Positions 13,828-58,667 of a DNA stretch of 64,000 nt are shown in pieces. The notes under the pieces were generated by a model. It was not told the DNA's origin, did no database searches, and saw nothing but the letters and a program-made list of their open reading frames with translations. Location: assembly GCF_009649955.1 (NCBI RefSeq), contig NZ_CP045875.1:3108001-3172000 (forward strand), written 5' to 3'. Within the stretch, counting starts at the first letter, position 1. Every line of letters begins with the position of its first letter. The stretch is from Heliorestis convoluta. GTDB taxonomy: Bacteria; Bacillota; Desulfitobacteriia; Heliobacteriales; Heliobacteriaceae. Made by a program: the position numbers and the translations under genes.

Positions 13828-14808
13828 ATGAGCAAAAAAGTTGGAATTACAACAACCATACCAATAGAAGTTGTCTATGCAGCTGGTTTGAGGCCTGTTG
13901 ATCTAAACAATCTGTTTATTGCCGGAGAAAAACCAAATGAAGCAGTAGAAAAAGCAGAACAGGCTGGTTATCCACGGAACATCTGTGGTTGGATCAAAGG
14001 ACTCTATACAACTCTGTTGGAATCAAAAGAGATCGAGCAGGTTATAGCCGTCACACAAGGGGACTGCTCTAACACCCATGCTTTGATGGAAACTTGGCAA
14101 GCTGCAGGAATTGAAGTGATTCCTTTTGCCTTTCCCTATGATGGAGATTATGATCTGCTCAAATTGCAGATAGAAAAACTTATAAAAGCGCTTCATACAG
14201 ATTGGGATAGCGTTTATCTATGGAAGCAAAAGCTTGATAGAATACGCCAAAAAGCTCACCAAATCGATACGTGGACCTGGCAAAAAGGTTCTATCGATGG
14301 GAAGAACAATCATCAGGCTTTGGTTGGCTGTTCCGACTTTGACGGCAATCCTGATCAGTATGAAGCCTTTCTTGAACATATGCTACAAGCTGCAATTGGA
14401 CAAGAACAAAAAGGGGCGGTGCGCCTTGGTTATGTAGGCGTACCACCCATCTCCTATGATCTATACGATTATATTGAAAACCAAGGTGCCCAGATTGTGT
14501 TTAACGAGGTGCAGCGACAGTTTTCCATGCCCTTTGAGGTTTCTGACTTGGTCAAGCAGTATCAGCAGTACACCTATCCTTACTCCATTTTTCATCGACT
14601 CCGGGATATAGAGCAAGAAATTGAGCGTCGGAATATTGCGGGCATTATTCACTATACGCAGAGCTTTTGCTTTCGTCAAATCGAAGATATTATTTTGCGA
14701 CAAAGGCTCAATGTGCCCATATTGACCCTTGAAGGCGATCGACCAGGGCCTATAGATGCGAGAAGTCGCATGCGGATTGATGCTTTTATTGATATGTTGG
14801 CGTATTAA
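13828..14808 (+). CDS. 2-hydroxyacyl-CoA dehydratase D-component / double-cubane cluster family protein
   Basis: A 326-residue Fe-S protein of the HgdB/FldC/DCCP family. Cysteines available for cluster binding are in NICGWIKGLY, TQGDCSNTHAL, GCSDFDG and QSFCFRQIEDIIL. Only one such subunit is encoded, and its ATP-driven activator lies at 28370. That one-plus-one set resembles YjiM/YjiL and the double-cubane-cluster protein with its reductase, more than true heterodimeric dehydratases, so the substrate is unknown. I prefer ATG 13828 because MSKKVGITTTIPIEVVYAAG is the usual family start; TTG 13789 is also open. The last 285 bases are repeated exactly at 26784 and 27553. Confidence 0.8.
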   Translation: MSKKVGITTTIPIEVVYAAGLRPVDLNNLFIAGEKPNEAVEKAEQAGYPRNICGWIKGLYTTLLESKEIEQVIAVTQGDCSNTHALMETWQAAGIEVIPFAFPYDGDYDLLKLQIEKLIKALHTDWDSVYLWKQKLDRIRQKAHQIDTWTWQKGSIDGKNNHQALVGCSDFDGNPDQYEAFLEHMLQAAIGQEQKGAVRLGYVGVPPISYDLYDYIENQGAQIVFNEVQRQFSMPFEVSDLVKQYQQYTYPYSIFHRLRDIEQEIERRNIAGIIHYTQSFCFRQIEDIILRQRLNVPILTLEGDRPGPIDARSRMRIDAFIDMLAY

Positions 14809-14821
14809 TAACACAGCCCCC

Positions 14822-15287
14822 GGGCATGACTGGTCAGTACGAAAATAGATAATTTGTGGTGGGGTCAGGCGTTATGAATTCCTTCCGAACGGACTCATCC
14901 CACGCCATGAGCGGCAGCAAGCTGCCGATGGCTGAGGTCTGAAGTCCTCTCTCCAGGAAGTCATAACGCCTGACTCAGGTACATTTTGCTGGTTGTGACT
15001 GAGTTTTGGGCCTATTGCATTGCAAATACAATAGGTAGTTGCGGATAGAAGAAAGTTTCGCCAAGCTATTCCAACGGAAGTAACAATCAGCAAAAACCTT
15101 CTGGGTCAGGGCATCACGCTTTCCGCAGCGGGACTTGGGACCTCAGCTGTCGCCAGCTTGCTGGCGGTAACAGCGTGGGACCAGTCCAGAGCGGAGGAAA
15201 GCGTGATGACCTGGCCCCTCTATGAAGTAACCCCAACGTAATCAGGAAATATTGATTTTCATCGTTGGTTGTGCCCGACTGGGCATG
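14822..15287 (+). repeat. Paired-hairpin dispersed repeat, copy A (mosaic)
   Basis: A non-coding element of 466 bp that begins and ends with GGGCATG. It has two large imperfect hairpins: 14862-14976 and about 15105-15223. From 14524 to 14959 the sequence, including the dehydratase gene end and most of the first hairpin, is identical to copies B and C. From 14960 on it differs at roughly 30 positions. The copy is therefore a chimera of two element variants, with a recombination point at or just before 14960. The outer arms of hairpin 1 no longer match fully (CTGACTC against GGGTCAG). Confidence 0.9.
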
Positions 15288-26783: not shown

Positions 26784-27068
26784 TCCATGCCCTTTGAGGT
26801 TTCTGACTTGGTCAAGCAGTATCAGCAGTACACCTATCCTTACTCCATTTTTCATCGACTCCGGGATATAGAGCAAGAAATTGAGCGTCGGAATATTGCG
26901 GGCATTATTCACTATACGCAGAGCTTTTGCTTTCGTCAAATCGAAGATATTATTTTGCGACAAAGGCTCAATGTGCCCATATTGACCCTTGAAGGCGATC
27001 GACCAGGGCCTATAGATGCGAGAAGTCGCATGCGGATTGATGCTTTTATTGATATGTTGGCGTATTAA
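26784..27068 (+). pseudogene. Truncated 3' copy of the dehydratase gene, unit B
   Basis: The last 94 codons plus stop of the gene at 13828-14808, beginning at the codon region for MPFEVSDLVKQYQQY and ending AFIDMLAY. No promoter or ribosome site precedes it. One cluster cysteine (SFCFRQ) remains; the fragment cannot be functional by itself. Confidence 0.95.
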
Positions 27069-27081
27069 TAACACAGCCCCC

Positions 27082-27552
27082 GGGCATGACTGGTCAGTAC
27101 GAAAATAGATAATTTGTGGTGGGGTCAGGCGTTATGAATTCCTTCCGAACGGACTCATCCCACGCCATGAGCGGCAGCAAGCTGCCGATGGCTGAGGTCT
27201 GAAGTCCTCTCTCCAGGAATTCATAACGCCTGACCCAGGTACATCTTGCTGGTTGTGACTGAGTTTGGGCCTATTGCAAATACAAATACAATAGGCAGTT
27301 GCGTATACATCGCAGAAAGGTGCGCAAAGCAATGTCAACGGAAAGTAACAATCAGCAAAAACGCTCTGGGCCTGGGCATCACGATTTCCAGAGCGGGACT
27401 TGGGACCTCAGCTGTCGCCAGCTTGCTGGCGGTAACAGCGTGGGACCAGTCCAGAGCGGAGGAAAGCGTGATGCCCAGGCCCCTCTATGAAGTAACCCCC
27501 ATGTGATCAGGAAATATTGATTTTCATCGTTGGTTGTGCCCGACCGGGCATG
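27082..27552 (+). repeat. Paired-hairpin dispersed repeat, copy B
   Basis: This 471-bp copy starts with GGGCATG and ends with CCCGACCGGGCATG. Hairpin 1 is 27122-27236 and hairpin 2 is 27368-27482, each 115 bases. Outer arms are perfect: GTCAGGCGTTATGAATTCC with its complement in hairpin 1, GGGCCTGGGCATCACG with its complement in hairpin 2. Between them is a smaller stem GCCTATTG...CAATAGGC. Reading frames crossing it differ between copies and are not genes. Confidence 0.95.
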
Positions 27553-27837
27553 TCCATGCCCTTTGAGGTTTCTGACTTGGTCAAGCAGTATCAGCAGTAC
27601 ACCTATCCTTACTCCATTTTTCATCGACTCCGGGATATAGAGCAAGAAATTGAGCGTCGGAATATTGCGGGCATTATTCACTATACGCAGAGCTTTTGCT
27701 TTCGTCAAATCGAAGATATTATTTTGCGACAAAGGCTCAATGTGCCCATATTGACCCTTGAAGGCGATCGACCAGGGCCTATAGATGCGAGAAGTCGCAT
27801 GCGGATTGATGCTTTTATTGATATGTTGGCGTATTAA
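27553..27837 (+). pseudogene. Truncated 3' copy of the dehydratase gene, unit C
   Basis: Identical to the fragment in unit B: about 94 codons plus stop of the dehydratase gene, with no start signals of its own. Confidence 0.95.
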
Positions 27838-27850
27838 TAACACAGCCCCC

Positions 27851-28321
27851 GGGCATGACTGGTCAGTACGAAAATAGATAATTTGTGGTGGGGTCAGGCG
27901 TTATGAATTCCTTCCGAACGGACTCATCCCACGCCATGAGCGGCAGCAAGCTGCCGATGGCTGAGGTCTGAAGTCCTCTCTCCAGGAATTCATAACGCCT
28001 GACCCAGGTACATCTTGCTGGTTGTGACTGAGTTTGGGCCTATTGCAAATACAAATACAATAGGCAGTTGCGTATACATCGCAGAAAGGTGCGCAAAGCA
28101 ATGTCAACGGAAAGTAACAATCAGCAAAAACGCTCTGGGCCTGGGCATCACGATTTCCAGAGCGGGACTTGGGACCTCAGCTGTCGCCAGCTTGCTGGCG
28201 GTAACAGCGTGGGACCAGTCCAGAGCGGAGGAAAGCGTGATGCCCAGGCCCCTCTATGAAGTAACCCCCATGTGATCAGGAAATATTGATTTTCATCGTT
28301 GGTTGTGCCCGACCGGGCATG
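27851..28321 (+). repeat. Paired-hairpin dispersed repeat, copy C
   Basis: Identical to copy B. Hairpin 1 is 27891-28005 and hairpin 2 is 28137-28251. It forms the immediate upstream region of the dehydratase activator gene, so any transcript entering from the left must pass through both hairpins. Confidence 0.95.
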
Positions 28322-52365: not shown

Positions 52366-52473
52366 TTTTGTAGGCCTCCTTGTTGTAATGGCTTGGACTA
52401 CCTTTACAGTTCCCCTGTTGGAATGACGGTAATCAAGGAGGTTTTTGGAAATTGGTTTTGTTGGACCAAACTT

Positions 52474-52896
52474 TCCTGATCACGTTGGGGTTACTTTATG
52501 CGGGGGCCTGGTCATCACGCTTTCCTCCGCTCTGGACTGGTCCCACGCTGTTACCGCCAGCAAGCTACTGATACGCTGAGGTCCCAAGTCCCGCTGCGGA
52601 AAGCGTGATGCCCAGGCCCAGAGGGTTTTTGCTGATTGTTACTCCCGTTGGAATAGCTTGGCGAAACTTCCTGCTATACGCAACGGCTATTGTATTTGCA
52701 ATGCAATAGGCCAAAACTCAGTCACAACCAGCAAGATGTACCTGGGTCAGGCGTTATGACTTCCTGGAGAGAGGACTTCAGACCTCAGCCTTTCACGCAG
52801 CTTGCTGCCGCTTATGGCGTGGGATGAGTCCGTTCGGAAGGAAATCATAACGCCTGACCCCACCACAGAGTAGCAATTAACCATTTTCGTACTAGC
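52474..52896 (-). repeat. Paired-hairpin dispersed repeat, copy D (diverged, ends eroded)
   Basis: Inverted relative to copies A-C. Hairpin 2 is about 52504-52619 and hairpin 1 about 52744-52860. Both terminal GGGCATG motifs are lost and the inner stems carry unpaired changes (for example CTACTGATACG in place of CTGGCGACAG), so this is the oldest or least constrained copy. It fills most of the 696-base gap 52366-53061; the rest holds no gene. Confidence 0.9.
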
Positions 52897-54614: not shown

Positions 54615-54790
54615 GAGTTGAGGTAGAGGCGCGGTAGTTCAAGAGTAGATTCAAGAAGGTCCAAAGGCATGGACGATGCATTGAATTGAAAGGGTTCAAC
54701 CGCCGAAGCTGAGACGATTGCACAAGTCCCAGCTGGGTCTGCAGTGAATAGCTGCAGGACTGTCACCACGGAGCATTCCCACCTTGATTT
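54615..54790 (+). ncRNA. Lysine riboswitch (L box)
   Basis: Conserved L-box blocks appear in order: GTAGAGGCGCGGTAG, AAGAGTA, GAAAGGG, CCGCCGAAGC, CAGCTGGGTCTGC, AGTGAATAGCTGCAGGACTG and TCACCACGGAGCATTCCCACC. The outer P1 strands close around 54617 and 54785. It lies directly upstream of diaminopimelate decarboxylase, the last step of lysine synthesis, and is followed by a terminator, so lysine should switch transcription off. Confidence 0.93.
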
Positions 54791-54865
54791 TCTAAGGCGC
54801 TCTTATTGTGGTGGAGCACTATCTTACTAGGGAGTAGAGAGGGCATTTTTCGTGTTGACGTAATA

Positions 54866-58158: not shown

Positions 58159-58624
58159 CATGCCCGGTCGGGCACAACCATTTGATGAAAATCAGCTTTT
58201 TCTGATTACGTTGGGGTTACTTTGTGCAGGGGCCTGGTCATCACGCTTTCCTCCGCTCTGGACTGGTCCCACGCTGTTACCGCCAGCAAGCTGGCGACAG
58301 CTGAGGTCCCAAGTCCCGCTGCGGAAAGCGTGATGCCCAGGCCCAGAGGGCTTTTTACTGATTGTTACTTTCCGTTGACATTGCTTTGCGTAACGTCCTG
58401 CTATGTTTACACAGCTGCCTATTGTATTTGCAATAGGCCCAAACTCAGTCACAACCAGCAAAATGTACCTGGGTCAGGCGTTATGAATTCCTGGAGAGAG
58501 GACTTCAGACCTCAGCCATCGGCAGCTTGCTGCCGTTCATGGCGTGGGATGAGTCCGTTCGGAAGGAAATCATAACGCCTGACCCACCACAAATTATCTA
58601 TTTTCGTCTTAACCAGCCATGCCC
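58159..58624 (-). repeat. Paired-hairpin dispersed repeat, copy E
   Basis: A 466-bp inverted copy with both GGGCATG ends (CATGCCC on +). Hairpin 2 is 58230-58344 and hairpin 1 is 58471-58585, each 115 bases as in copies B and C. The flanks GGGGGGTTAACAGG and GGCTGGTTAAGAC (element strand) share a GGTTAA just outside the GGGCATG on both sides. It sits between the permease-thioredoxin operon and the arsR gene. Confidence 0.93.
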
Positions 58625-58667
58625 GACTAAGACGTACTGTTATCACTGAAGGAGGATAGACTACAGC

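Follow-up and report, generated by a model that had tools for sequence, protein, structure and literature searches.

Several described systems of short repeats and insertion sequences resemble the element reported here. REPs are palindromes of 20–40 bp with stems of 5–13 bp (PMC3733652). Bacterial MITEs such as QMITE2 and the pneumococcal RUP/SPRITE type are short and gene-free, carry terminal inverted repeats and direct repeats, form a stable hairpin, and cluster with other elements (PMC10969869). IS1630, an IS30-family insertion sequence of Mycoplasma fermentans, is reported to target and duplicate inverted repeats, the duplications being 16–26 bp (PMC3317919 and its reference 47).

The window (the whole 64-kb stretch of Heliorestis convoluta DNA that was analysed) harbors a dispersed repeat built of large hairpins, which the original prediction likened to REPIN/BIME elements. 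The hairpins probably represent a non-autonomous, MITE-like element that targets and duplicates terminator palindromes and that, in Heliorestis, has been reworked into an inverted dimer of mosaic build.

Composite repeats in Heliorestis convoluta

Five copies of the composite element are found in the window, each consisting, as predicted, of two hairpins of about 115 nt with homologous cores in inverted orientation. Copy A (14815–15279, forward strand) has hairpin 1 at 14862–14974 and hairpin 2 at 15103–15217. Copy B (27075–27545, forward) contains hairpin 1 at 27122–27236 on the forward strand and hairpin 2 at 27368–27482 on the reverse strand, 115 nt each, and copy C (27844–28314, forward) has the same arrangement at 27891–28005 (forward) and 28137–28251 (reverse). 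Copies D (52472–52893; hairpin 1 at 52744–52860, hairpin 2 at 52504–52619) and E (58166–58625; hairpin 1 at 58471–58585, hairpin 2 at 58230–58344) lie on the reverse strand. The 57-base core of hairpin 1 does align without gaps to the reverse complement of hairpin 2, at 79% identity (E 6e-9). Open reading frames inside the hairpins were rejected as chance ORFs.

The dispersal of the five copies needs one qualification. Copies B and C sit in two units (26784–27552 and 27553–28321, both forward) that form an exact tandem duplication (769/769 identical), each unit comprising a gene tail of about 290 bp followed by the repeat. The 769-bp unit is 95.6% identical, gene tail included, to 14524–15287, the region of copy A, which is the likely source of both. 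Copies B and C thus reflect segmental and tandem duplication rather than separate insertions, and the five window copies represent about three independent insertions. The gene tail (26784–27074 and 27553–27837) reads like a 2-hydroxyacyl-CoA dehydratase subunit, the gene end from 14.5–14.8 kb having been duplicated together with its repeat. A lysine riboswitch (RF00168, 105.8 bits) is also present in the window, at 54616–54829.

The H. convoluta genome, a single contig of 3,218,981 bp, contains at least 150 core hairpins according to a covariance model of the core; relatives carry the core as well, and the family is larger than the original prediction supposed. Among the matches listed in this genome are 60 head-to-head pairs, spaced mostly by 233–257 nt, and 30 singles, which bears out the inverted-dimer, BIME-like plan. 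The inverted dimer was seen in H. convoluta only, the single hairpin being the basic unit in other genomes. The same restriction applies to the mosaic of several palindromic and other motifs that characterizes BIMEs: the H. convoluta composite is embedded in other small repeats, including the palindromic module GGTTGTGCCCGACCGGGCATG and the REP-like GGGGACGTTTCGTTTGGCA. The module GGTTGTGCCCGACCGGGCATG stands on both sides of many composites, and in the window it has four matches (15267–15287, 27532–27552 on the forward strand, 28301–28321, and 58159–58179) against none expected by chance. The REP-like repeat GTGTCACGGGGACGTTTCGTTTGGCA is nested with the composite at L145, L155, L167, and other loci.

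Terminator-like hairpins are commoner beside the Heliorestis composites than 400 nt away (16/59 versus 4/59), an excess for which intergenic position alone could be enough. The hairpins occur in both orientations relative to genes, and no conserved neighbouring gene was found next to them. The genome paper of H. convoluta HH-T (PMC7143216) uses the word “repeat” in the context of CRISPR alone, and the hairpins thus seem to have gone unreported there. In Rfam, the hairpins gave no match at the gathering threshold or at E ≤ 1, in line with the original prediction, which knew of no described family.

Distribution of the hairpin core

A class-level scan of 83 genomes gave matches only in four heliobacteria and suggested an element restricted to this group, a notion overturned by a draw of 398 genomes from the phylum. 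Strong, mostly multi-copy core matches were obtained there in the family-level groups f34, f37, f45, and f93 (best E per genome 1.3e-19), together with a weaker match in f139, and the cores from these other Bacillota families keep the same loops and bulges. A weak match in an Acidobacteria MAG (Thermoanaerobaculum; L207, 607–706; E 2e-4) is possibly due to chance and was not accepted. Plasmid, phage, and viral relatives of the hairpin were sought and none found, and a search of viral contig annotation for a neighbouring protein gave no lead. The hairpin family extends across several Bacillota families, through which it has spread, apparently as a gene-less mobile element.

In Heliorestis acidaminivorans the hairpins, about a dozen, are solitary and share their core with those of H. 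convoluta. Their outer arms of 15–22 bp have almost nothing in common, yet they are still complementary; the arms look homogenised in H. convoluta and diverged in H. acidaminivorans. At least four of these hairpins have the same flanking genes as an H. convoluta element on both sides: L066/L121, L068/L123, L071/L126 (beside tRNAs), and L067/L149 (beside OLE RNA). A fifth, L070/L151, is matched on one side, and a further pair, L065/L160, was rejected because the loci are neighbouring. The OLE RNA (RF01071) adjoining the site common to both species occupies 1823–2437 of L067 and 87–703 of L149. Four other H. convoluta insertion sites are empty in H. acidaminivorans.

Heliobacterium mobile and Heliobacterium chlorum have about 5 hairpins per genome, nearly all of them directly 3′ of 23S rRNA genes, where they are inserted in some rRNA operons between the 23S rRNA and a conserved CTGTGTAGTTTTC box. 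Hairpin-bearing and hairpin-less operons coexist within one Heliobacterium genome, and degraded rRNA sequence is found next to, or not far from, L106 and L113. Unrelated hairpin repeats occur in the spacer behind 23S rRNA at L179 and L199 (H. acidaminivorans) and at L178 and L186 (genome G004); it seems that palindromic repeats of heliobacteria commonly land in this spacer.

Covariation and possible constraint on the fold

The conserved part of the element appears to be a structured hairpin core of about 85 nt, set within longer arms that would vary freely while remaining complementary. Among 56 distinct sequences, 20 of the 29 core pairs show two-sided changes. When the arms are added and the structure pairs are tested as their own set, 12 of 45 structure pairs covary significantly (E<0.05) versus 0 of 6,171 others, as the original prediction of covarying pairs would have it. 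The null in this test replays each column's substitutions on the tree, using our own script modelled on R-scape rather than R-scape itself. In an all-pairs test of the core alone, no pair falls below 0.05, and the five best pairs are all in the structure. With the other families added, 23 of 29 core pairs have two-sided changes and the score is 0.42 (0.15 for shuffled and at most 0.07 for slid controls); alignments fitted to a model lean towards that model, a concern limited by the slid controls and by counting the arm register outward from the core.

The further claim that compensatory changes mean that the fold itself has been selected stands only in part. Unpaired core bases are conserved across families, a C being present in 47/47 sequences and a T in 46/47, for example, and this does argue for a constraint on the core. 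For the fold as a whole the claim goes too far, because mismatches show no consistent strand bias, the direction of G·T versus A·C counts varying by subset and method, and because paired changes can also arise through template-switch repair.

Template switching in imperfect palindromes is established from E. coli, and the covariation of the arms could be purely mutational, with the polymerase copying one arm onto the other and no selection on the fold. Such a process would account for two-sided changes far outnumbering one-sided ones (221 cells in 20 pairs), for the mismatches without strand bias, and for arms that diverge completely and keep their complementarity. It should, however, erase internal loops and bulges that are asymmetric, yet these are retained in several families, and it sits poorly with the stepwise A–T, T·G, and C–G states at one H. 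convoluta arm position. It accounts for the arms and not for the core or its spread, and we regard it as a somewhat doubtful explanation.

It is unlikely that the core is primarily a functional structured RNA, in its own or neighbouring transcripts, with the fold selected as RNA and mobility secondary. Such an RNA would display the covarying stems and the cross-family conservation of unpaired bases that are seen here, and the sites common to the two Heliorestis species and the location in transcribed rRNA operons are consistent with it. A G·U-type excess on one strand is not consistently seen, however, and the mixed orientation relative to genes, the lack of an Rfam relative, and the lack of a conserved neighbouring gene also speak against an RNA function.

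Element ends, probable mobility, and comparison with known systems

In the genomes G191 and G449 the element is gene-free, measures about 142 bp, and is bounded by imperfect terminal inverted repeats, CAGACCGTCGACAAA and CAGCTTGTAGACAAA. The CAGCTTGTAGACAAA and CAGACCGTCGACAAA ends face each other in G191, in both orientations, and the copies there tend to have a locus-specific palindrome on both sides. Of 37 elements bounded by these repeats (mostly from G191, a few from G449), 29 are flanked by direct repeats, versus 3 of 716 mismatched pairings; an independent score was obtained as well. These direct repeats are 16–31 bp long (median 21) and are mostly stem-loops folding end to end, many of them followed by T-rich sequence like intrinsic terminators. 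Examples are AAAGGCCGGTTCCCCGGCCTTT at L255, ACCGGTGCGTCACCGCACCGGT at L251, and a 31-bp repeat at L304.

G191 also contains elements of 202, 266, and 408 bp with the same ends and with other or rearranged insides. At L265–L269 and L300, 266- and 408-bp elements with unrelated insides are flanked by duplicated palindromes, and a wider group of gene-free elements in this genome shares one set of ends. Since elements with other insides share these ends, such mobility does not require the hairpin core in G191, and the core may be a passenger.

The proposed MITE-like element would be a unit of about 142 bp that landed on a palindrome, usually a terminator-like one, and left it as a direct repeat on either side; in G191 and G449 it looks recently active. 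A putative transposase acting in trans would recognise the inverted repeats and, as IS1630 is reported to do, integrate across palindromes. Insertion would duplicate the stop hairpin and leave it unbroken, and should therefore do almost no harm, so that copies can accumulate in intergenic space. The H. convoluta composites would have arisen by head-to-head joining of two diverged hairpin units, their combination with other small repeats, and amplification to at least 60 pairs. The Heliorestis and Heliobacterium copies may be old insertions of the same core that moved by the same route and whose ends have since decayed or been rebuilt.

Mobility is favoured by the four empty sites in H. acidaminivorans, by the occupied and empty rRNA operons of a single Heliobacterium genome, by the numerous pairs and singles in H. 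convoluta, and by the recurrence of the core, loops conserved, in other Bacillota families; the facing inverted repeats and flanking direct repeats, as sequence patterns, also point to it. Against a mobile element stands the failure to find a helper or an autonomous copy: no pair of ends 0.7–4 kb apart occurs among the matches listed, the flanking genes are host genes, and the search for a helper gene bearing these ends gave none. Target duplications, CAG...CTG ends, and terminal inverted repeats were likewise not seen at the Heliorestis and Heliobacterium copies. IS30 genes are present in G191, G156, and G115, and an IS30 helper was rejected, the G191 copies lacking the element's ends and other carriers having no such genes. 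A reverse transcriptase or retron origin was also rejected, no PF00078 being present in H. convoluta.

Movement by a RAYT (TnpA-REP) transposase, the mechanism of REPIN/BIME elements to which the original prediction pointed, is very improbable and already contradicted. The inverted dimers and their mosaic combination with other repeats would suit it, but PF01797 Y1 transposases amount to one short IS200-like protein (136 aa) in H. convoluta and none in H. mobile or H. chlorum, REP stems are only 5–13 bp (PMC3733652), and target duplications such as those of G191 are inconsistent with HUH transposition. H. acidaminivorans has three PF01797 Y1 transposases, longer than that of H. convoluta. That the core originated as a hairpin for pre-rRNA processing and then escaped and spread, as its usual place behind 23S rRNA in H. 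mobile and H. chlorum might suggest, is scarcely credible because operons with and without it coexist, and its handful of copies per genome compares with 15–17 matches to the 23S end, it is absent from sampled H. convoluta operons, other hairpins fill the same spacer in other species, and the core is found away from rRNA in other genomes.

Tentatively, the hairpins may form a new structured nucleic-acid family across Bacillota families, in which the core would be recognised through its fold, as RNA or single-stranded DNA, and a putative transposition system would integrate across terminator hairpins and duplicate them whole. The proposed element ties a widespread, unannotated hairpin family to a mobile element that would spare the stop signals it hits, and it supplies natural variation of arm sequences under retained pairing. 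It thereby becomes possible to test whether selection or palindrome repair maintains large genomic hairpins, and how transposases locate terminators.

Compared with known systems, the family shares with REPIN/BIME elements its dispersed palindromes and, in H. convoluta, its inverted dimers and mosaic combination with other repeats. It differs in a hairpin several times longer (115 nt versus 20–40 bp, PMC3733652), as the original prediction had stressed, in the absence of RAYT from most carriers, and in the terminal inverted repeats and target duplications of G191; the analogy with REPINs holds for the shape but not for the mechanism. Bacterial MITEs are similar in being short and gene-free, with terminal inverted repeats, direct repeats, a stable hairpin, and a tendency to cluster. 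These MITE features are found in G191 and G449, the target duplication there at the 29 of 37 elements and not in heliobacteria, and an autonomous parent with the same ends is absent among the matches listed. Unlike those MITEs, the element has a core conserved with covariation across bacterial families and direct repeats that are palindromes of variable length. IS1630 differs in encoding a transposase within 1.2–1.4 kb, whereas the element here has no gene and no IS30 transposase with matching ends was found; in the duplication of an inverted-repeat target, as reported in PMC3317919, IS1630 is nonetheless the closest precedent found.
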